This document shows, piece after piece, positions 4,336-28,892 of a stretch of DNA of 28,892 bases (within the stretch, counting starts at the first letter, position 1; every line of letters starts with the position of its first letter). The DNA comes from a virus. The DNA is taken from positions 1 to 28,892 of the IMG/VR virus record IMGVR_UViG_3300037041_001387; one strand, written 5' to 3'. The notes beneath the pieces are model-generated. The model saw only the letters and a list, made by a program, of their open reading frames with translations, did no database searches and was not told the DNA's origin. Position numbers and translations under genes: made by a program.

Positions 4336-5037
4336 TTTGTCGTTTGTATATCTCGGTTAATTTACTTTCATACTCTCTCCGGTCCTTTTCAATTGATAGG
4401 GTCATAAATATAGTATCTGCCTCCGTTGCAAGTAAAGTCTCATACTTTGTAACGTCTCCCTTACTCAACGAGTAAAGGGTTTTGAAAAATCCGTATTTTT
4501 CAAAGACTCCAACTCCGGCCTCCTCCTCCTCGTCTGTATATTTGCCCTCTGTTAATTGTTTAAAACGCTCATAAAATCGAGATATTTGCTCAAAAAAAAA
4601 TTGACCAATCCGATTGTCTCAAGGATTGACTTTTGATTTATATCTTGTCCCGTATAGGTTTTGACAATTGAGGCTCCGGCGTTGATTGTATCTTTGCCGT
4701 CAAGTTTTGCAATCGCTTGTTTTGCCTCCTCAAGTTTGCTCCAGGGATAATGACCAATATACCAACCGTCGTACTCGCTCGGGACAACGTTTGCCTTTAT
4801 TATATCCTCGTAGTCATACGAGAACGCAATCGCCGGTATGAGTCCAATAATATCGTCGGCCGGTAAGTCATTAATGAGATTATAATCAACTCCAACCAAT
4901 ATCGCAATCCGTCTCTCGATTGAGCCGTTGTCGTCGTTAACGAGTTGGACGTATTTGTCAAAACTAACCTCGGACCAATCCGTCGGGACTTGTTTGATCT
5001 CTCGTTTTTTGTTCGTTATAACCGTAAAAGTTAACAT
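4313..5037 (-). CDS. Tail assembly chaperone, long form made by -1 frameshift (241 aa, predicted)
   Basis: The zero frame starts at ATG 5037 and would stop at 4552, giving 161 aa (MLTFTVITNKKREIK...). Sixteen residues before that end, the codons AAT TTT TTT TTG run through nine consecutive T (plus-strand 4592-4600). A -1 shift there joins an open -1 frame that continues to a TGA at 4313-4315. That frame has an acidic DEEEEAGVG patch and helical ends, but no ATG near its beginning: the only ATG is far downstream, in FMTLSIEK. The fusion has 148 zero-frame plus 93 shifted residues. The arrangement copies the gpG/gpGT tail chaperones of lambda-like phages. The short form is listed separately. 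Confidence 0.7.
4552..5037 (-). CDS. Tail assembly chaperone, short zero-frame form (161 aa)
   Basis: This is the unshifted product. Its N-terminal part (PTDWSEVSFDKYVQLVNDD, then RRIAILVGVDYNLINDLP) looks like the small helical chaperones found before tape measure genes in Bacteroidota phages. No enzyme motif is present. It is the first gene after the terminator that follows terL and has its own promoter-like sequence directly upstream. In lambda the short form greatly exceeds the shifted form, and the same is expected here by analogy. Function is inferred from position, size and the frameshift arrangement. Confidence 0.65.
   Translation of the reverse strand: MLTFTVITNKKREIKQVPTDWSEVSFDKYVQLVNDDNGSIERRIAILVGVDYNLINDLPADDIIGLIPAIAFSYDYEDIIKANVVPSEYDGWYIGHYPWSKLEEAKQAIAKLDGKDTINAGASIVKTYTGQDINQKSILETIGLVNFFLSKYLDFMSVLNN
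4592..4600 (-). other. Predicted -1 ribosomal slippage site (T9 run)
   Basis: On the coding strand the run reads AA-T9-GAG. In the zero frame the seven bases before the slip are T TTT TTT, an ideal X XXY YYZ slippery heptamer. After a one-base backward slip the next codons are TTT GAG CAA ATA, which opens the 93-codon shifted frame. The shifted frame is closed upstream by a TGA (within CCTTGAGAC), so it cannot be an independent gene from an upstream start. No strong downstream pseudoknot was identified by eye. Confidence 0.7.
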
Positions 5038-5074
5038 TGTGCCAAATATAAACGATTGGTTGTTTACTTATCAA
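5038..5074 (-). promoter_or_regulatory. Bacteroidota-type promoter for the tail operon
   Basis: On the - strand TATATTTG (plus 5043-5050) matches the -7 consensus TAnnTTTG exactly, and TTG (plus 5072-5074) lies 21 bases upstream as a -33 box. The ATG of the chaperone gene starts only 6 bases after the last base of the -7 box, so the transcript would have almost no leader. It sits directly after the terL terminator, which fits a fresh start of transcription for the tail genes. Confidence 0.55.
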
Positions 5075-5088
5075 GGTAAGGACTAAAA
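5062..5088 (-). promoter_or_regulatory. Repeated regulatory element, copy A
   Basis: Read on the + strand this is GTTTACTT, a 7-base spacer, then TAAGGACTAAAA. The 12-mer TAAGGACTAAAA recurs exactly upstream of the head protease gene (24629-24640). In both places its inner edge lies exactly 26 bases from the -7-like box of the - strand promoter. It could be an operator or activator site for late transcription. Confidence 0.5.
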
Positions 5089-5159: not shown

Positions 5160-5189
5160 TATTTTTTTTTGTCTGTATAAGTTAGGGCC

Positions 5190-6497
5190 TTAATATTTTG
5201 CGGCTCGAGTTTTAATCCTTGGAGCAATCTCAAAAAACATACGGAGAGCCAAGGCGTCCGACAAGTCGGGAGACCGTCCGAGGATATCCTTGACTTTATC
5301 CTTGGGGAGGATTGAGAGTTTTTTGTCTTGGTCAACGTTTTGTTGTTTGACTTGGTCCAACTCCTCAATTAATCGCTCCTTGTCCTCCGGACCAATGACC
5401 GGCCAAGAGATTTGATTTGTATTAATATAGTCGGCCAATTTAAAATACGCTTGACTCTTGAGGTTGGTATAATTTTCTCCGTTTAAGGCTCGGGAGTTTG
5501 CAACAAATCCCTTGCAACCGGATAAGAGGTCGACCGCTCCTCCTCCGACTCCGTCCTCGTCGAGTATGACTTGACTCATTGGGACCCTATACTCGGAGGC
5601 GAGTTTTTTAATTAGGTCGGCAACCTCAACAATTGAGGACTTTGCGAGGACCTTATACTCAACGATCTTTAAATTGTCCCAAACGAGGACGACGGTTTTG
5701 TCCTCACCAAAACGGGCGACGTCGCAACTGATATATCTCGAGCCGGTATCTTTAAAATTATTCGTAAATATATCGTTGATTGAGTCAAAGTTTATCAATC
5801 GAGTTGGGTCGTCGTCGTACTCCCAATTGCCAAACAAAAGTCTCTCCTTGCTTATTTTGTCCAACCGTTTAAGATTTTCGATATAATGTTTTGAGATATA
5901 AGGGTTGTCAGTTACAAGGGATTGGATAACCTTTCGATTGGCTCCGAGGGTCCCCTCCCTCCAAGGTTTATAAAATTGAGAGTAAGTCCAATTTTTTGAG
6001 GGGTTACAAGTATACAAGATTTTTGGGACAAGGTCAAACTCGTCCAACTTGTATCGTATCCTTGAGGAGAGTATACCTTTACATTTGTCAGTTATTTGAT
6101 TGGCCTCGTCGACAAAGGCTCCGGTTATCTCCAAGGACCCCAACTCGTCAAAATTTGGGTCGCTCGGATAATTAAATAAATCCTTGAGGAGTATTTGGCT
6201 CCCGTTAAAAAACGAGATAAGGTTGGATTGATAATTTATTTTATAATGGAGGTTAACCTTGACGCCTTGGGCTTTAAAGACGTCGAGCAAAGTATTGAGA
6301 GTTGTCTCCTTTAAAGTCTTTAAAACGGCCCTCCCAATCAACCAACGAGTCTCCGGATACTTGAGAGCGGACGAGGCAATCCAAAGACAACCAAGGGTCG
6401 ACTTGGCTCCTCCAGCTCCGCCGCCAAACAACAACTCGTTGGTCGTTTTATCCTCGAGGATATTAATTGCGGCCGTCTGTTTTTGGGTCAATCTCAT
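5190..6497 (-). CDS. terL: Terminase large subunit (435 aa)
   Basis: This is the ATP-driven packaging motor and headful/cos nuclease. The N-terminal ATPase has Walker A GGGAGGAKST at 25-34 and Walker B AFVDEA at 127-132, followed by a coupling-type segment ILYTCNPS at about 160-167. The C-terminal RNase H-like nuclease shows the first acidic strand YISCDVARFGEDKTVV (Asp259), a second acid in VILDEDGVGGG (Asp313/Asp315) and the final acids in SPDLSDALALRM (Asp411/Asp414). The length is normal for the family. The gene overlaps terS by 35 bases and ends before a strong terminator. Confidence 0.97.
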   Translation of the reverse strand: MRLTQKQTAAINILEDKTTNELLFGGGAGGAKSTLGCLWIASSALKYPETRWLIGRAVLKTLKETTLNTLLDVFKAQGVKVNLHYKINYQSNLISFFNGSQILLKDLFNYPSDPNFDELGSLEITGAFVDEANQITDKCKGILSSRIRYKLDEFDLVPKILYTCNPSKNWTYSQFYKPWREGTLGANRKVIQSLVTDNPYISKHYIENLKRLDKISKERLLFGNWEYDDDPTRLINFDSINDIFTNNFKDTGSRYISCDVARFGEDKTVVLVWDNLKIVEYKVLAKSSIVEVADLIKKLASEYRVPMSQVILDEDGVGGGAVDLLSGCKGFVANSRALNGENYTNLKSQAYFKLADYINTNQISWPVIGPEDKERLIEELDQVKQQNVDQDKKLSILPKDKVKDILGRSPDLSDALALRMFFEIAPRIKTRAAKY

Positions 6498-7427: not shown

Positions 7428-8093
7428 TTATTTATTAACAATTGATTTATTTTTTATAAAGGTTGTCCATTGGTCGGCCATTGCCTCGGCAACTTTTGGA
7501 TAAAACCTCGCTCTCTCTTTGGCTCCGTCTTTGCTCGACCCGTCGATTGCCTCCGTCTTGTATCTTGGTTTGCCGGACTTGTCAACATAAACGGGAGCCG
7601 GTTCGTCGGAGTGAGTCCTTGACTCAAATAAAGTATCCGTCTTGGAGTGCAACAAGGGAGGCAATCCCTTGAGCCAAAGACAAGTCAATTTTTTGTCCTC
7701 GTCTCCAAAAAAATAAGGGTGCAAATATTGAGTCGGTTTGAGATTTCTCATTGGATACCCTCGAGGGTTTTCAATACAAATATAGGGGACCGGAGCCTCC
7801 CAAAACTTGAGAAAAAAATCGAGGGCCTTGGTCCTTTGTTTTATCCGGTCGATTGCTGCTTGGCCGTATTTATCAATATTAAAGTATCTGTTACCGGCGT
7901 ACGATAAAAATTGACAAGGAGGGTGAGCAATAAGGAGGTCCCAATTTTGGTCGAGCAACTCCAGGGCGTCGCCTTGATAATGGTTGCCGGATTGCTCGGA
8001 GGCGATTAAATCGCAACTCCAAGCCTCCCAACCTTTACGCTCAAACGCCGTCCGGACAATACCCGAAAACTCACAAGCAACGAGGACCCTCAT
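7428..8093 (-). CDS. DNA cytosine-C5 methyltransferase-like protein 1 (221 aa)
   Basis: The enzyme would add a methyl group to cytosine C5 in DNA using S-adenosylmethionine. Motif I is VLVACEFSGIVRTAFE at about 3-18. Motif IV is DLLIAHPPCQ with catalytic Cys60, and motif VI is CIENPRG with Glu108. At 221 aa it is shorter than typical stand-alone C5 enzymes (300 aa or more), and no clear target-recognition domain or QxRxR motif VIII is visible. It may be a compact phage form. Its start overlaps the end of the preceding membrane-protein gene by 4 bases (8090-8093). It is the second of two such genes in the region. Confidence 0.85.
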   Translation of the reverse strand: MRVLVACEFSGIVRTAFERKGWEAWSCDLIASEQSGNHYQGDALELLDQNWDLLIAHPPCQFLSYAGNRYFNIDKYGQAAIDRIKQRTKALDFFLKFWEAPVPYICIENPRGYPMRNLKPTQYLHPYFFGDEDKKLTCLWLKGLPPLLHSKTDTLFESRTHSDEPAPVYVDKSGKPRYKTEAIDGSSKDGAKERARFYPKVAEAMADQWTTFIKNKSIVNK

Positions 8094-8671: not shown

Positions 8672-8689
8672 GTTTACTTGTTTAAGGAC
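8672..8689 (-). promoter_or_regulatory. Repeated regulatory element, copy D
   Basis: The + strand reads GTTTACTTGTTTAAGGAC. Copy B before the head protease (24619-24635) is GTTTACTTGTTAAGGAC, identical apart from one extra T. Copy D overlaps the last codons of the methyltransferase at 8674 and lies just upstream of the 119-aa gene at 8654. No good TAnnTTTG box follows it, so if it acts on transcription it may do so as an operator rather than as part of a promoter. Confidence 0.45.
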
Positions 8690-9327
8690 GAGGATAAAAT
8701 CTCAAGGCAAAGGTCCGGCGGCAATTTGCTCCGGTCATAACTCCCTTGTCGTCCTTGGGTCCCCGTCCGACTCCCTCGAGGGGCCGGTTGATGTTTGCAA
8801 TTTTTATTTGATTTATAGCATTTTGACCGAGGTCTCCAACCCTTTGGATTGTAAATTGAGACGAGGTTGTTGGTCCAAATATCGGTAGACTTAAAACGGT
8901 CGTCCCCGTATTTGCAATAATTGACCGTTGCTCGGTCAAACTCTCCTCGGACAATTGGCAATTTGCGGAGTTTGCCGGTTGGATTTTCGACAAACCAAAT
9001 CAAGTCCGGATTGATATCCAAAAAAAAGTTGATTATCTGTAAAGTCTTGGCGACTATCTCAACGCCTTTGATTGCGTTTGCCGACTTTGGGGAGTTGTCT
9101 TTGTTCCAATGATAACCGATTGAGGCAACGCTAAAAAAAGTACAAGGCGGAGAGGCCCAAATTATATCCGGAGTAAACGGGACCAAGGTTGGGTCAAAGT
9201 CTAAAATATCAACCGAGTAATTAATCCCGTCAAAGTTTTGGATATCCGAGGAGTAAACCTCAAATCCGAGACTCTCGGCAACTTTACCAATTGAGCGACT
9301 ACCGGCGAATAATTCGAGGACCCTCAT
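8674..9327 (-). CDS. DNA cytosine-C5 methyltransferase-like protein 2 (217 aa)
   Basis: Motif I is VLELFAGSRSIGKVAESLG at 3-21, the standard SAM-binding start. Motif IV is PDIIWASPPC with catalytic Cys62, and motif VI is WFVENPTGKLR with Glu114. The C-terminal part has a basic, Cys-containing loop (RSKCYKSNKNCKH) and a Gly-rich segment before RSKLPPDLCLEIL, which resembles the closing motif of phage C5 methyltransferases. Its start overlaps the end of the PD-(D/E)XK nuclease gene by 4 bases, so the two are translationally coupled. This suggests protection of phage DNA or a restriction-modification-like pair. Confidence 0.88.
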   Translation of the reverse strand: MRVLELFAGSRSIGKVAESLGFEVYSSDIQNFDGINYSVDILDFDPTLVPFTPDIIWASPPCTFFSVASIGYHWNKDNSPKSANAIKGVEIVAKTLQIINFFLDINPDLIWFVENPTGKLRKLPIVRGEFDRATVNYCKYGDDRFKSTDIWTNNLVSIYNPKGWRPRSKCYKSNKNCKHQPAPRGSRTGTQGRQGSYDRSKLPPDLCLEILSSSLNK

Positions 9328-14607: not shown

Positions 14608-14841
14608 TTAATTGGAGTCTTTAAAGATTAGCAAGGACTTGATATCGGTCTCGTAATAATTGGCAAGGCTGCAAATTATATCGTATCTCAAAAGTTGGAT
14701 ATCCTTTTTTAAGGCCCAATTGCGTATTGATTGCTCGGACAATCCGGTCAATTGTGCAATCCTTGTCCTTAATACTTTTTTTGTGAGGGCCTCGTAAATA
14801 TGAGGTTGCAACTCGGTCGGTTGTTTAAATTTGTTTGTCAT
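14608..14841 (-). CDS. XRE-like helix-turn-helix regulator (77 aa)
   Basis: Residues 25-45 (RTRIAQLTGLSEQSIRNWALK) form a helix-turn-helix of the Cro/C1 type, followed by KKDIQLLRYDIICSLANYYETDIKSLL, which fits the closing helices. ATG 14841 is chosen because the -7 box lies 21 bases upstream of it. The TTG at 14865 falls inside that box. It is the third gene of the early block and probably controls early or lytic genes. No second repressor or integrase is seen, so it need not be a lysogeny repressor. Confidence 0.75.
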   Translation of the reverse strand: MTNKFKQPTELQPHIYEALTKKVLRTRIAQLTGLSEQSIRNWALKKDIQLLRYDIICSLANYYETDIKSLLIFKDSN

Positions 14842-14862
14842 ATCGTTTTTATATTTATAATA

Positions 14863-14870
14863 CAAATATA
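14863..14870 (-). promoter_or_regulatory. Promoter -7 box before the XRE-like gene
   Basis: TATATTTG on the - strand matches TAnnTTTG fully and lies 21 bases before ATG 14841. The upstream -33 region overlaps the end of the 216-aa gene; a TTG is present about 24 bases upstream, slightly more than usual. Confidence 0.5.
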
Positions 14871-15843: not shown

Positions 15844-15861
15844 ATTGAGCCTCAACTCAAT
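15844..15861. terminator. Small hairpin after the lysis genes, possible terminator
   Basis: ATTGAG pairs perfectly with CTCAAT across a 6-base loop. On the - strand it is followed by TGTTTATAT, a weak T-rich run, about 50 bases past the endolysin stop. It could end the late transcript. The remaining bases of 15755-15911 hold the repeats above and no gene. Confidence 0.35.
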
Positions 15862-15911
15862 AAAATTATCGGTCGAGGCCCTCTTGTATACGGCTATTTT
15901 TAAAATTGATC

Positions 15912-16565
15912 TTAAACCTTATAAGACCAAACTCCCCAAGAGGAGTATCGAGGATTGAGATACCAATCGTCGACAAAATATTTTTTATTTGACCAACCGG
16001 CTTGGGATTGGACCGGACAAAACTTGCCGTTGACAATTTTATGACTTTGCCCGTTTATCTCCGGAGATATAACAACGATATGACCGGACCGACTTGTAAT
16101 TTTCTGCTTGGCAACAATGACAACAACCTCTCCCTCGTTTGCTAATTTTTGGGCGTCCTCCAGGGTTTTAGGCTTGGACCAACCAAAGTCGTCCGAGTAA
16201 ATTGCAAACCAATCAAACAAACTATTGGCGTTAAGTTCAAAGACGGTAACTCCGTACTTGGCTTGGACGTCCATTGTATTAAGGTCCTTGATTGCGTCTT
16301 GTCCCCACCAAACTCGAGGCAAGTACGCTCCGGCCAAATTGGCAACGTCAAAGGCGTAAATATTGCAATACGTCGAGACAACCTTGCCGTCGACCTCTTT
16401 GCGTTTATATCTTGGAGAGGACTCAACGTTTAAAAAATCAAAGATTTTGATAATCGACTCGGGAGTCCCGTCGCCTTTTGGTAGGTTTGGCATATTTAAG
16501 GGATACGCCTTGGACCCGTCAATCAAGTTAATCTCTTTGTTGCTTGTTAAAATTGCTTTTTTCAT
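15912..16565 (-). CDS. Endolysin, CHAP/NlpC-like cysteine peptidase (217 aa)
   Basis: This enzyme likely cuts host peptidoglycan at the end of infection. Cys67 in STYCNIYAFDVANLAGA and His162 in RSGHIVVISPE match the Cys-His pair of CHAP/NlpC-P60-like peptidoglycan peptidases. The TYCN motif before a helix is typical of this group. No signal peptide is seen, so release would depend on the holin. The ATG at 16565 overlaps the spanin-candidate gene by 4 bases, and the gene ends the late region. Confidence 0.85.
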   Translation of the reverse strand: MKKAILTSNKEINLIDGSKAYPLNMPNLPKGDGTPESIIKIFDFLNVESSPRYKRKEVDGKVVSTYCNIYAFDVANLAGAYLPRVWWGQDAIKDLNTMDVQAKYGVTVFELNANSLFDWFAIYSDDFGWSKPKTLEDAQKLANEGEVVVIVAKQKITSRSGHIVVISPEINGQSHKIVNGKFCPVQSQAGWSNKKYFVDDWYLNPRYSSWGVWSYKV

Positions 16566-23181: not shown

Positions 23182-23400
23182 TTATTTTTTTTTTGTTTTG
23201 CTCGTTTTGGTTGGCTCTGTTTTTTTGATCTTTGATTTTTTCTCGTCAATTTTAAGGATAACGGTCCCAAGCAATGAGGGATTTTTTTTGATAAATAACT
23301 CCGCCAATTGGTCCGTTAAATCCTCCGCCTTTATTAAAGACTTTGGACCGTACGGTCTCAACTCGGCTCCCTCTGCAATTATATATTTTGAGGACTCCAT
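23182..23400 (-). CDS. Small head-region protein (72 aa)
   Basis: The gene lies between the protease/scaffold and the capsid; its ATG overlaps the protease stop by one base (TAATG). The N-terminal part is folded (YIIAEGAELRPYGPKSLIKAEDLTDQLAELFIKKNPSLL) and the C-terminus is a lysine-rich tail. It could be a head decoration or assembly helper. No family is recognised. Confidence 0.6.
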   Translation of the reverse strand: MESSKYIIAEGAELRPYGPKSLIKAEDLTDQLAELFIKKNPSLLGTVILKIDEKKSKIKKTEPTKTSKTKKK

Positions 23401-24581
23401 TATTTGCCAAAAATTTGCTTATTGCGATTGTCCGCCTCAATCCTTTTAATCCAAGGTTTATCCGAGGTTTTTGTTTGAGTTGCGGCGTTGGTTTTTTTCT
23501 TTGGGTCTCCGTTAATTGACGCCTTAAACGCAACAAGGTCCTTTTTTAGGGAGTTAACCTCGGCTTCAATTTGCGACTTACTCGCTCTCTCCGCCTCCAA
23601 GTCGGTTGTCAACGTTGCGTTGGCCGCCTCAAGGTCTGCAATTTTTTGAGTCAACTCGGCGTTGTCCTCCGGCTCTCCCTCAAACATACGGATTTCGGTA
23701 ACAAATCCGTCCGTTACAACAATAACGTCTCCGTTGTCGAGTCTGTGGTCTCCGTCGGGAGCCGCCGTTGTCATTGCCTCGTCTGTAAATACGGCCGAGC
23801 CAATCTCGAGAGTCTCTCCCTCGTAATATAAAACAACTCCGTCCTCAAGGGTTGAGGTCCCGTTGTTGATTTTGCCTTTAAATAGGTTTGAGATTTTTGC
23901 AAGGGTTTTCTCCAAGCCGGTCAATCTCTTGTTTAAGTCATTATTCATTTGATTATTTGTATTTGATTTATATTTTGCAAGGGTGAGGTCTGTATAAGTT
24001 GCAACAACTTTACGTTTTGCGATATAATCCTCGGCAAATCCCAAACGGATTGCCTCGGCCGGACCTATATCGGTATCTTGGTCCATAAAATCCTTGACCA
24101 TAACTTTGTCGGAGTCGTTTAATTTTAGACGCTCAACGTAAAAATTAAAAATTTTCTCCTCCGATTGGCGTACGTCCTCGGATATCGCCTCCAGGGCGTC
24201 GGCCGTCAAGGGTATATTGCCAAGATTTGCGGCGTCAATCCAAGGGTTATGTATAACAAACTCGGCATTTTTTGAGAGATAACGATTGTCTCCGGCTAAA
24301 AATATAACCGTCGCAATTGAGTTGACTCTGTATCCTTTTGTAACAATTTTTTTGCCGGAGGTCCTTAATTTGTCGTAAATCGCAAATCCTTGAGAGACGC
24401 TCCCTCCGTTGGAGTCAATCTCAATCTCCAAGGTCTCGGCGTCCGGATTGGCGTCGATAAAGTCTCCAATCATTTGGGCGTTAACGCTCCCGTCTTGGAC
24501 TCCAAAGGACAACAAAAAAGGGTCGGGGTCTCCGATATTGCCCTCAATTTTAAACTTTGCGACGCTCATAACTTTTGACAT
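23400..24581 (-). CDS. ClpP-type head maturation protease fused to scaffold-like domain (393 aa)
   Basis: The N-terminal 190 residues are a ClpP/SppA-like serine protease: IDSNGGSVSQG at 55-65, nucleophile Ser88 in GYRVNSIATVIF, His111 in EFVIHNPW, and an acidic partner near Asp169/171 in DQDTDIGPAEAI. Then comes a linker and a small beta domain (VLYYEGETLEIGSAVFTDEAMTT), and finally a coiled coil (AELTQKIADLEAANATLTTDLEAERASKSQ) and basic tail, suitable as an internal scaffold removed during maturation. A promoter-like box and element B lie upstream. Confidence 0.85.
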   Translation of the reverse strand: MSKVMSVAKFKIEGNIGDPDPFLLSFGVQDGSVNAQMIGDFIDANPDAETLEIEIDSNGGSVSQGFAIYDKLRTSGKKIVTKGYRVNSIATVIFLAGDNRYLSKNAEFVIHNPWIDAANLGNIPLTADALEAISEDVRQSEEKIFNFYVERLKLNDSDKVMVKDFMDQDTDIGPAEAIRLGFAEDYIAKRKVVATYTDLTLAKYKSNTNNQMNNDLNKRLTGLEKTLAKISNLFKGKINNGTSTLEDGVVLYYEGETLEIGSAVFTDEAMTTAAPDGDHRLDNGDVIVVTDGFVTEIRMFEGEPEDNAELTQKIADLEAANATLTTDLEAERASKSQIEAEVNSLKKDLVAFKASINGDPKKKTNAATQTKTSDKPWIKRIEADNRNKQIFGK

Positions 24582-24618
24582 TTATATCAATATGCAAATT
24601 AAAACTTATTTATATTGC

Positions 24619-24640
24619 GTTTACTTGTTAAGGACTAAAA
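24619..24640 (-). promoter_or_regulatory. Repeated regulatory element, copy B, between divergent genes
   Basis: The + strand reads GTTTACTTGTTAAGGACTAAAA. It lies between the + strand regulator gene (ATG 24653) and the protease gene (ATG 24581, - strand). On the - strand, exactly 26 bases separate it from TTAATTTG, a 7-of-8 match to the -7 consensus, the same spacing as at copy A. It is well placed to control both genes. Confidence 0.5.
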
Positions 24641-24652
24641 TATTTTTTTAAA

Positions 24653-24814
24653 ATGAGCGACCAAAAATCAATAAAAGGATACGTCTCCGAGGATATAAAG
24701 AATAAATTTAACGCAAAGGTTGAGAAAATTTACGGCAACAAAAGGAGTGCGACTCTTGTTATACGAAAATTGGCGATTAAGTTTATCAACGGAGATATTG
24801 ATCTCAAGGATTAA
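24653..24814 (+). CDS. Small ribbon-helix-helix-like regulator on the + strand (53 aa)
   Basis: This is the only + strand gene I can support. It reads MSDQKSIKGYVSEDIKNKFN, then a helix with KVEKIYGNKRSATLVIRKLAIKFING and an end DIDLKD. The layout (short strand IKGYVSE, helix to about 26, GNKRS turn, second helix) fits the ribbon-helix-helix family of phage and plasmid repressors (Arc/CopG/ParD type). It stops at 24814, one base before the tape measure stop codon at 24816-24818 on the other strand. It likely binds DNA and may act on the repeated element beside its start. Confidence 0.7.
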   Translation: MSDQKSIKGYVSEDIKNKFNAKVEKIYGNKRSATLVIRKLAIKFINGDIDLKD

Positions 24815-24815
24815 T

Positions 24816-27800
24816 TTATCTCAACGTTGCGGCGGCCTTGTTTTGGACAAGGTTTTTGTTGACTCTGTTTATATCCGTTACCTTGGTAACGATTGTTACT
24901 TTTGACAACGCCGTTGCAACCTCTCCGGCCAATAACGAGGCGGAGACTTGGGCCTCGACTCCGGTCCTTATTGCGTTGGCCGTAAATCCTCCGTCCGCAA
25001 ATCCGGACAATCCTAAATTTGATACCTTTCCCAATCTCATACTCTCCAACCTTGCAACCAACTTGGAGCCGGTATCGGTTTTGAGTATCTTATTGGGGAC
25101 AACGTACTCGCCTTTGTGATAAGTATAATCCTTGGACCCCAACGCTCGAGACTCGCTCCTTGGGTCTCCGTCTCCCGTATATCCTCCCTCATAAAACGGA
25201 GGAGGAGGAGGTTGTTGTCCGGCAATAATCCCAACTTGAGTCGCCGTTGTTGCAATAATTATACCGGCTCGAATACCGGAGATAATACCAAGGGACGGGT
25301 CGGGGACCGCAAAATTGGCAATCAACGCCTCGGCTCCCGAGATAATCGCTTGGGCGATTTGGACTCCTTTGTTAAAATTAAAGGCGTCAACCTCGAGTTG
25401 GTATTTTTTCTTTGCCGTATCCTCGTTGAGTTTTTCGATTTGCTTGGCCTTTTGTTTTTCTGTTAAGGTTGTTTTTTCAATTGCCTTAACTTGTGCTTGT
25501 CCTTGAGCCTCAACCTCGGCCGTTGCGTTTGCAAAGGCGGCGTTAACTCCATTGGATAAAGTTGTCAATACTCCGGCAATCTCGTCTGCAACCTCTTTAA
25601 ATTTATCCGCAAAGTCTTTGGGTATAATTGAGAGAGGTTGGGCGTTTATATCCTTGAGTTGTTGCTCCAGCTCTTTGAGAGAGATTTTGGCCTCGTCGAT
25701 TTTATCTTGCTCCTCGGGAGTAATAAAGAGGTCAAGGTTGGCCGACTCCTCGGCAATCCTTATCAACTCTTTTTGTTTGTCGATTTGTATTTGTATCGTT
25801 GCGAGGGCCTTTTTTCTCTCGTCCTTAATCGTTGCGTCAACGTCGAGTTGTCTCAACCTTGCCGTCTTGTCCAACTCAATAACTTGTCGGTCGAGTTTTT
25901 TTTGCTCCTCCTCTTGGCGTTTTTGCTCCTTGAGGTCATTGTATTTGATAACGATATCCAACTCCTTGGACGCCGTCTCCTCGTCAATCTCAATCAAACG
26001 GTCCGCCAATTTTTGTCGGGCGATTTCTTTCTCTGCTTTCTCTTTATCGTTCTCGGCCTTGAGGTTATTAAACTCCTCAATTAACGCCGCCTTTTGTCTC
26101 TCTTGGGACAACTTTAAAGACTCAATCTCCTTTTGCTCTTGGTCGGCCAAGGTCTCGGTCCTCAAGTCTTGGCTCTCTTGTAGTATTTTTTTCTCAAAGG
26201 CGAGGATTGCCTTGAGGTTGTCTTGGGTATTTTTTGCCGTCTTGTTGGTTGCCTTGTCAGTTATCGAGGAGATATTTAATAAATCGACGCCGGTCCCTTT
26301 AATAACCTCGTTGAGGTCGTCTTGGTTTGCCTTGAGGAGCGATTGACTAATCTCCAAGTCTTGATTTATTTTTTTTAACTCCTCCTCATTTTTGGTGATT
26401 GTGTCAAGTACCTCCTTTTGACCTTGTCTAAAACCTTGAGACGCCTTGAGGTTTTTATTAATCTCCTCATATTGCCTTTTGTTGGCCTCAAGTTGTTTAT
26501 TATTTAACTCAAGATTAACTCGCTCCTCGATAATTGGTTTAAGGGCCGCCTCCGAATTTTCAAGGATTATTTTATCCCGTATCTTTGCAATAATACGTTT
26601 ATAACCCTCCTCAACTTGGGCCAAGATTGCGGCCTCGTCGTTGAGGTTTTTTATTGTGGTCCCGTATTGAGAGTTGAGTTTGTCAACAACGGCCTTTTTT
26701 TCGTTATACGTTAGATTGCCCTCCTTTAATCTTTGGGTCAATATTAAATATTGACTAACCTCTTGGGAGGTTGTATCAACAACGTCCTTTTGGATTTTGT
26801 CGAGTCGCTCTTGGTCCTCCTTTAATTTTTTGGCCTCCTTGGAGGTCTCTCCAAAAATATCCTTTAAGGCGTCCGTCTTTGTTGCAAGTAAAACAATACC
26901 GGCGATAATTGCTCCAATACCAATAGCCGACAACGCTCCGGCAAAACTTGTCGTTGCTAAAGTTGCGGCCCTTGTTGCGACCGTTTGGACAACCAAGGCG
27001 GCCGTCTTTAATTTGGTTTGTATTAAGTCAGCAACTCCGATAATTGCTCCCTTTGATTTGGCGATATTTGCCAAGGTTTGAGCAATAGCAACGGCCTTGA
27101 GGGTTTTCTCTTGTATCTCTTGGATTGTTTCGTTTTTACCAAAGGCAATCGTCAACAAACCAATCGAGGAGGTCAAGGCGGACGCCGCCTCAAAGGTATC
27201 CTCAAACCCCTCCTTTGCCGGATTTTTTGGCTCCTTATTTCCAAACTCGTCGACCTTTCCAATTGCCTTGTCAATCTCAAATTGGGTCGCTCTTATCTCG
27301 TCGTTTGTCTTTTTAAACTCCTCCGAGTTGAGGTCCAAAGTTGGAGCCAACTCCTTGAGGTCTCTCAACTTTTGGGTCATACCCTCGATTGTATTTGTAT
27401 ACTTGACCGAGGACTCGGTTGTCCCTTTGATTGTCCCGTCGGCATTAAAAAAACCGATTGACGTTTGAGCGATCTCTTGGTCAAGGTTTGCAATTGCCGT
27501 CTCGTTTGCAATGATTTGTTGATTGACCGCCTCAAATGAGGAGGCCGTCTCGTCAAGAGAGGCGTTAAAATTATTGACTCCCTCGGTCGTTGCGTTTATA
27601 TTGCCTCCAAATCCTCCAACCGAAAAACGTTTTTGCTCCTCTTGATTTTTTTTGAGGGTCTCGGTTTGAGCAATCAACGCCTCCTTTTGTTTTAGCAATG
27701 GAGCCAAAGTCTCCTCCAACGCTCCCTTGTAGTTGCCGACGTTGCGGCGATTATCTCCAACGGCGGACTCGTTTTTTTTCAACTCGTCCGTTATACCCTT

Positions 27801-28196
27801 GATTGTCGACCCCAATTTTTGACCCTCAACCGAGTTGTCTCTCTCCTCCTTGCCGAGGGCGTTGTATTGCTCCGTTAATTTTTTAAGAGCGAGGCGGAGT
27901 TGCTCGTTGCTCCCCTCTTGAGACTTGGAGAGTTTTGTTTGAAACTCAATCTCCTTGTTGTTCTCTGCTATTGATTTTTTCCACGCCTTTTGTTGACGTT
28001 CCAACTCTCCAAGTTGGTCGATAATTTTCTCCCTCTCGGCTTGTCCGGTATTTTTGTCCTTGAGTTTTTTATTTAACTCGTCCGCCTCTGCCTTGACTTT
28101 TTTCAACGCCTTGGTCATTGCGTCGCCGTTTTTCTCTAGGTCGCTTGGGTTTAAGGTTATGGAGATAATAACCTCCTTGTTAATTGAGTCGGCCAT
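24816..28196 (-). CDS. Tape measure protein (1126 aa)
   Basis: The protein sets tail length and helps DNA enter the cell. It has long coiled-coil regions with heptads from the start (LKKVKAEADELNKKLKDKNTG...) through about residue 850. Hydrophobic stretches occur near residues 412-438 (SFAGALSAIGIGAIIAGIVLLA) and 969-999 (IISGIRAGIIIATTATQVGIIAG). It ends with the PPPPPFYEGGYTGDG...HKGEYVVPNKIL segment found near the end of many Bacteroidota tape measures. At about 0.15 nm per residue, the tail would be near 170 nm. Confidence 0.93.
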   Translation of the reverse strand: MADSINKEVIISITLNPSDLEKNGDAMTKALKKVKAEADELNKKLKDKNTGQAEREKIIDQLGELERQQKAWKKSIAENNKEIEFQTKLSKSQEGSNEQLRLALKKLTEQYNALGKEERDNSVEGQKLGSTIKGITDELKKNESAVGDNRRNVGNYKGALEETLAPLLKQKEALIAQTETLKKNQEEQKRFSVGGFGGNINATTEGVNNFNASLDETASSFEAVNQQIIANETAIANLDQEIAQTSIGFFNADGTIKGTTESSVKYTNTIEGMTQKLRDLKELAPTLDLNSEEFKKTNDEIRATQFEIDKAIGKVDEFGNKEPKNPAKEGFEDTFEAASALTSSIGLLTIAFGKNETIQEIQEKTLKAVAIAQTLANIAKSKGAIIGVADLIQTKLKTAALVVQTVATRAATLATTSFAGALSAIGIGAIIAGIVLLATKTDALKDIFGETSKEAKKLKEDQERLDKIQKDVVDTTSQEVSQYLILTQRLKEGNLTYNEKKAVVDKLNSQYGTTIKNLNDEAAILAQVEEGYKRIIAKIRDKIILENSEAALKPIIEERVNLELNNKQLEANKRQYEEINKNLKASQGFRQGQKEVLDTITKNEEELKKINQDLEISQSLLKANQDDLNEVIKGTGVDLLNISSITDKATNKTAKNTQDNLKAILAFEKKILQESQDLRTETLADQEQKEIESLKLSQERQKAALIEEFNNLKAENDKEKAEKEIARQKLADRLIEIDEETASKELDIVIKYNDLKEQKRQEEEQKKLDRQVIELDKTARLRQLDVDATIKDERKKALATIQIQIDKQKELIRIAEESANLDLFITPEEQDKIDEAKISLKELEQQLKDINAQPLSIIPKDFADKFKEVADEIAGVLTTLSNGVNAAFANATAEVEAQGQAQVKAIEKTTLTEKQKAKQIEKLNEDTAKKKYQLEVDAFNFNKGVQIAQAIISGAEALIANFAVPDPSLGIISGIRAGIIIATTATQVGIIAGQQPPPPPFYEGGYTGDGDPRSESRALGSKDYTYHKGEYVVPNKILKTDTGSKLVARLESMRLGKVSNLGLSGFADGGFTANAIRTGVEAQVSASLLAGEVATALSKVTIVTKVTDINRVNKNLVQNKAAATLR

Positions 28197-28197
28197 A

Positions 28198-28892
28198 TTA
28201 GTTGACGATTAAAATTAAAGTTATTTGAGTTGAGTCTTTGTCCTTTACTTTGTATTGACTTATCTCATTAATATAAAAAAACGCTCCAAAATAATCAATC
28301 CAAACGGGGATTGAAAAATCAAGTTGATTGATATCAATATTGTTGAGACGGACCAAACAAGTAACCGCCTTGTTGCCGTTTATAGTTTGCTCAAAAAGAG
28401 GATAATACTCGGGGAGTAATTTTGCAAAACTCAAATCGTCAAAGTAAACGTTTGGTTGAGGCGTCGAGAAAAATCCTCCAGGGCCTACCGTTAAAAGGGC
28501 CGACGTATCAAACTCAACGTATCCCAAACGAGGGGTCAACGAGTTAAACGCTCCGTCCTCGTATACGGGGACCCAAGCCAAAGGGACAACCCCTCCGACT
28601 CCGGTCGGTCCGTTAAATGAGTTGAGCCTAACCAATGGAGCAAAGACGGACTCAAAAACAATCAACTCCGTATTGGCCGGAGCCGTCTCCAAAGTGAGGA
28701 CGCCTTGACCAAGATTGGGTTGCCTTGAGAGATACTCGTCTCCGGTATCCTCTGCATATTTAAAAATATTGGTTTGGGCGTATACGTCCGTAAAAAAACT
28801 GATTGAATAATCCTCGGAGAGGTCCAACTTGTTTGACCAATCCAACGCCTTGGGGAGGTTTTGGATAATCTTGCCAAACTGAAAAATCCGGA
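28198..28892 (-). CDS. Large tail protein, C-terminal part (start at 1379 across the circle join)
   Basis: This is the continuation of the gene that begins at 1379. In the linear window it lacks its 5' end. The frame enters at 28892 and reads FGKIIQNLPKALDWSNKLDL, identical to the stretch ending at base 1. The C-terminus is beta-rich (VWIDYFGAFFYINEISQYKVKDKDSTQITLILIVN). It stops at 28198, two bases before the tape measure ATG (junction TAATATG), which indicates coupled translation. Treating the TTG at 28845 as a start would be wrong. Confidence 0.8.
   Translation of the reverse strand, partial: RIFQFGKIIQNLPKALDWSNKLDLSEDYSISFFTDVYAQTNIFKYAEDTGDEYLSRQPNLGQGVLTLETAPANTELIVFESVFAPLVRLNSFNGPTGVGGVVPLAWVPVYEDGAFNSLTPRLGYVEFDTSALLTVGPGGFFSTPQPNVYFDDLSFAKLLPEYYPLFEQTINGNKAVTCLVRLNNIDINQLDFSIPVWIDYFGAFFYINEISQYKVKDKDSTQITLILIVN
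28766..28892. repeat. Right copy of 127-bp terminal direct repeat
   Basis: This is an exact copy of bases 1-127, the circular assembly overlap. Remove one copy before counting genes or bases. Confidence 0.95.

Follow-up and report, generated by a model that had tools for sequence, protein, structure and literature searches.

A 53-residue protein encoded between the tape measure and head protease genes of a phage is probably a switch turning on particle construction

The window analysed here, the whole 28,892-base stretch of a virus record, has a 127-base direct terminal repeat; since the terminal repeat of the related contig G2 (L007) is of identical length, both would fit circular molecules closed at the assembler word length. 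A 466-codon frame on the - strand (1-1400 and 28766-28892) runs off the left record end, and the gene thus probably spans the record ends of the circular molecule. Matches of the portal and protease proteins point to phages of Bacteroidota. The other related contigs are G1 (L006), G3 (L008; 20939 bases, incomplete and comparable only at the head and tail loci), G4, G6 (L028) and G7 (L002/L004, 6.4 kb). Two DNA methyltransferase genes of the window, 7428-8093 and 8674-9327 (-), match one and the same PHROG, and neither has a homologue found in G1 or G2. Unlike those of the window, the G6 genes for the helicase loader and RecT (L049, L050) are opposite in strand to the virion genes. Rfam and tRNA scans gave no match. 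The genes that concern us are the following:

24653..24814, + strand: 53-residue ribbon-helix-helix (RHH)-like protein gene, proposed late-gene regulator (orthologues, codon pattern)
24816..28196, - strand: tape measure protein gene, convergent with the RHH-like gene (weak PHROG matches and synteny)
23400..24569, - strand: ClpP-like head maturation protease gene, first of the head block (start placed from relatives)
4552..5037, - strand: gene of a 161-residue protein, first after the terminase gap, opening the tail block, whose last gene is the tape measure gene
14608..14865, - strand: small predicted HTH protein gene, rival regulator (weak HTH-regulator matches)

The small frame runs from ATG to TAA and is tightly enclosed: the tape measure gene, whose matches to tape-measure PHROGs are weak (E 3e-6), ends at 24816 (-), 1 nt away, and the divergent head protease gene (-) starts at 24581 or, more likely, at 24569. 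The first-pass annotation had described an unannotated + strand gene with just these convergent and divergent flanks, and both the gene and its setting are borne out. Among the 128 + strand ORFs of at least 35 residues in the window only three are less than 50% covered by a - strand gene, namely 24653-24814 (0% covered), an overlapping other frame at 24720-24905, and 15845-15958, for which no homologue was found in the relatives; 24653-24814 is the sole conserved + strand frame of the window that is clear of any - strand gene. Orthologues of 52 residues with 58-62% identity occur in G1, G2 and G6 (three contigs, two lineages), in each case between the tape measure and head protease genes and on the strand opposite to both, so that the conservation in related phages which the first-pass annotation put forward as a check is found. 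The G7 protein is identical to that of the window, as are the last 38 codons of the gene preserved at the end of the G4 contig. Comparison of the window with L002 shows 9 nucleotide changes, distributed 1/1/7 over codon positions 1/2/3, and no amino-acid change, and comparison with L006 gives dN 0.35 and dS 1.63. On the evidence of these sequence comparisons 24653-24814 is a real, conserved + strand gene, and one that looks regulatory.

Beyond these contigs no relative of the 53-residue protein was found in phage records searched by protein and by DNA or in a genome collection search. In L044, a distant tape-measure relative, the tape measure gene is not followed by a gene of this kind; L056, brought up by a motif scan for further orthologues, was rejected because stop codons interrupt the reading frames near its match, and these seem unrelated. 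In G3 the tape measure and protease genes are adjacent, with no small gene between them or elsewhere in its 20939 bases. Since G3 is no more distant from the window than is the gene-bearing G6 (mean identity over 16 shared genes 53.9% and 50.7%, respectively), the absence is most simply accounted for by loss of the gene in G3.

The first-pass annotation also attributed an RHH-like layout to the protein. In AlphaFold2 models of middling confidence (pLDDT 68-69) a segment that might be a strand precedes two helices, at residues 13-27 and 33-45, and no strand forms in the monomer models. The alignment of the protein was very shallow, with 5 rows, 3 of them distinct. The strand of an RHH protein pairs only in the dimer. 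On the other side, hmmscan found no RHH match and no convincing family in Pfam, NCBIfam or PHROGs; with each of the RHH Pfam profiles PF01402, PF12651 and PF03869, none of 6 records was matched even at an E cut-off of 10. Foldseek searches of two models against the PDB, and of the second model against BFVD, returned no significant match. Neither RelB (4fxe_A; Foldseek E 9.7, Z 2.6, rmsd 3.1 over 46 residues) nor TraM (1dp3; E 1.1 in a PDB profile search) is a significant match, and both are outranked by unrelated chains. The proteins P22 Arc and Mnt, whose fold is RHH, show no relation in hhalign (probabilities of 0.5 and 0.2 percent). The top matches of two PDB profile searches were 4D2-named helical proteins, which were set aside as an effect of composition. 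Because the layout of a short possible strand segment and two helices in 53 residues fits, an RHH fold is plausible from the models, and the protein is hence termed RHH-like.

A repeated DNA element beside the gene, also noted in the first pass, is present at two distant places: the junction of the RHH-like and head protease genes, and the gap separating the terminase gene from 4552-5037, the first tail-block gene. These are the two largest non-coding gaps of the window. The elements and the candidate promoter boxes near them are:

24628..24639, + strand: regulatory element, head copy, TTAAGGACTAAA, imperfect palindrome
5076..5087, + strand: regulatory element, tail copy, GTAAGGACTAAA, next to a hairpin that resembles a terminator (by eye)
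24595..24602, - strand: TTAATTTG, candidate -7 box for the head operon with one mismatch to TAnnTTTG; distance to the element centre 35 bp
5043..5050, - strand: TATATTTG, candidate -7 box for the tail operon; distance to the element centre 35 bp
24611..24618, + strand: candidate -7 box of the RHH-like gene, TATATTGC in the window

The element is a 12-bp imperfect palindrome of modest symmetry (3-5 of 6 pairs), and its tail copy has 1 mismatch to the degenerate pattern. When the 10-base core of each lineage was scanned in seven records, exact copies were found at the head junction and the terminase gap only: AAGGACTAAA twice in the window and once each in G4, where the head junction is cut off, and G7, whose 6.4-kb contig holds no second copy; AAGTACCAAA three times in G1 and twice in G2, where the tail copy has drifted; and AGTACTGAAA twice in G6. 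Chance would give about 0.05-0.13 copies per core in the window. The leader of the gene carries TTAAGTACCAAA twice, 21 bases apart, in G1 and G2, and a single copy, TTAAGGACTAAA, in the window, the tandem arrangement at the head junction being confined to G1-type relatives. Close to the terminase end there is a third and weaker element-like site, 5182-5193 (-). In the window and G4 it has a TACTTTTG box 34 bp away, and G1 and G2 hold weaker counterparts; it was excluded from the counts. No exact core occurs in G3, which lacks the element at both loci as it lacks the small gene.

These distributions bear on what binds the element. The main rival binder is the HTH protein of 14608-14865, which has orthologues in G1, G2 and G6 and matches HTH regulators weakly (PHROG E 0.0012, Pfam E 0.072); were this or some other phage protein the binder, the RHH-like gene would be a self-contained accessory at the head junction. 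We consider this unlikely, as the element lies within the leader of the RHH-like gene and is missing where that gene is missing, although the G3 contig stops short of the HTH region. It is very improbable that the gene is a moron-like accessory that takes no part in late control, with the element being bound by a host factor. Such a gene might well have its own promoter-like box, lie on the opposite strand and be absent from G3, but the letters of the element, which vary between lineages, match between the two distant loci within each lineage (one copy having drifted), and by their contig names window-type and G1-type contigs were found together in samples 3300044646 and 3300042561.

The preferred candidate binder is the RHH-like protein itself, and what its binding might do is suggested by the promoters. 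Twelve regions were examined for spacing, two of them from G3 and without the element; in all ten that bear it, a TAnnTTTG box (the Bacteroidota sigma-A -7 box) follows the element on the late strand at a centre-to-centre distance of 35-36 bp. This box is exact in seven and has one mismatch in three (the head boxes of G2, G7 and the window). Of the six head and tail regions of the window, G1 and G6, five have an exact box at the common spacing, against at most 2 of 6 in 5000 dinucleotide shuffles of those regions, and the window has two element-plus-box combinations against none in each of 60 shuffles; since the regions of different lineages are related by descent and the test came after the pattern had been noticed, these figures are support and no clean probability. 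With the Bacteroidota -7 box at -12 to -5, as given in PMC9723704, the element would be centred near -44, a position that fits, as geometry only, a class II (Mor-like) activator.

A repressor acting at the same sites would sit over the upstream edge of the two late promoters and over the promoter of its own gene, and so keep the virion genes off until late. The closeness of the element to the promoters agrees with this. SvtR of SIRV1, which PMC5569661 describes as repressing its own gene and as having its best binding site at the promoter of a structural gene, may act likewise, and the bacterial RHH proteins mentioned together with it are repressors. We nonetheless hold repression to be rather unlikely, because a spacing of 35-36 bp shared by two unrelated promoters across three lineages points to polymerase contact, and because TTG is rare (by eye) in the -33 zone of the late regions examined. 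The element-free protease promoter of G3 reads TTG-N18-TATATTTG, as if it relied on the ordinary -33 contact; by eye, the tail promoter of G3 lacks a TTG at the corresponding distance, so that the argument from -33 contact holds for one of the two G3 promoters. A role as lysogeny repressor is disfavoured in that no integrase was seen among the window proteins scanned against PHROGs, a set that covers the small frames in part. Several head and tail boxes lie 4-13 nt from the start codon, implying near-leaderless mRNAs. This counts against the predicted late promoters, since such mRNAs are uncommon in Bacteroidota: about 3.7% have a 5' UTR under 10 nt, and leaderless mRNAs amount to 5.5% in PMC9723704.

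On the opposite strand the -7 box of the RHH-like gene precedes the element centre by 19-21 bp in 5 of 5 contigs, which puts the element just past the predicted transcription start, within the leader. That box is exact in 4 of the 5, being TATATTTG or TAAATTTG in the four relative contigs, and degenerate in the window. The window box TATATTGC (24611-24618) fits TAnnTTGY, described in PMC9723704 as the motif of an alternative promoter class in Flavobacterium psychrophilum, and the relatives have TAnnTTTG. The geometry of the element on the two strands suggests that one bound dimer could aid the late promoter and block that of the regulator gene.

It thus appears that the 53-residue protein is probably a switch turning on phage particle construction. 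A dimer of the protein would bind the imperfect 12-bp palindrome and, at about -44 of the head and tail promoters, substitute for the -33 contact, helping the host polymerase to start both late operons. At the head junction the divergent transcript of the regulator gene is predicted to begin just ahead of the site, so that filling it would limit this transcript and bring down the regulator's own synthesis. The RHH fold, the binding of the element, activation, autorepression and the transcription starts are what we infer, and it is the spacing by itself that suggests activation instead of repression. Whether a small RHH-type protein both activates the two late operons and represses itself seems to us evenly balanced. 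The fuller reading, in which it is an RHH master activator of the virion genes, acts as a class II activator at -44, is self-limiting and has a specificity that co-diverged with its sites, is a tentative one, and somewhat doubtful. The proposal of the first-pass annotation, a switch for head-gene expression, draws support from the promoter anatomy and is here extended to the tail block.

To our knowledge, from a few keyword-based literature searches, the timing of late genes in small Bacteroidota phages is largely unstudied, and in this region there is a small, concrete regulator that lends itself to testing, its sites being defined and its promoters predicted. If the proposal is correct, a class II activator role would be added for an RHH-looking protein, and regulator and operator would change together across phage lineages; on the fuller reading, lineages of one habitat may not cross-regulate.

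Several known systems share parts of this arrangement. Lambda CI bound at OR2 activates one promoter from about -42 and represses the divergent one; the likeness is in the use of a single site for activation and divergent repression, and the difference in that CI is an HTH protein of lysogeny control. Mor of phage Mu is a larger protein, of another family than the 53-residue protein. In PMC4390567, Mor is a phage-encoded dimer whose inverted repeat, centred at -43.5 of promoter Pm, replaces the -35 element, a dimer site in the same -44 zone, but it acts on one middle promoter, whereas two late promoters are concerned here and activation is deduced. SvtR (SIRV1) and AvtR (AFV6) are, in PMC5569661, small viral RHH regulators of their own genes; SvtR acts also on a virion gene, as proposed here, and AvtR represses its own gene and activates or represses its neighbour. 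They differ in their archaeal hosts and promoters and, for SvtR, in repressing. In P22 immI (NC_002371) the arc and mnt genes, with divergent promoters, are flanked by head gene 16 on one side and the gene of the tail spike on the other. Arc, which shows no relation in profile comparison, represses the ant antirepressor gene (NC_002371 note), but it too is a protein of 53 residues whose gene sits with divergent promoters at a head/tail boundary.
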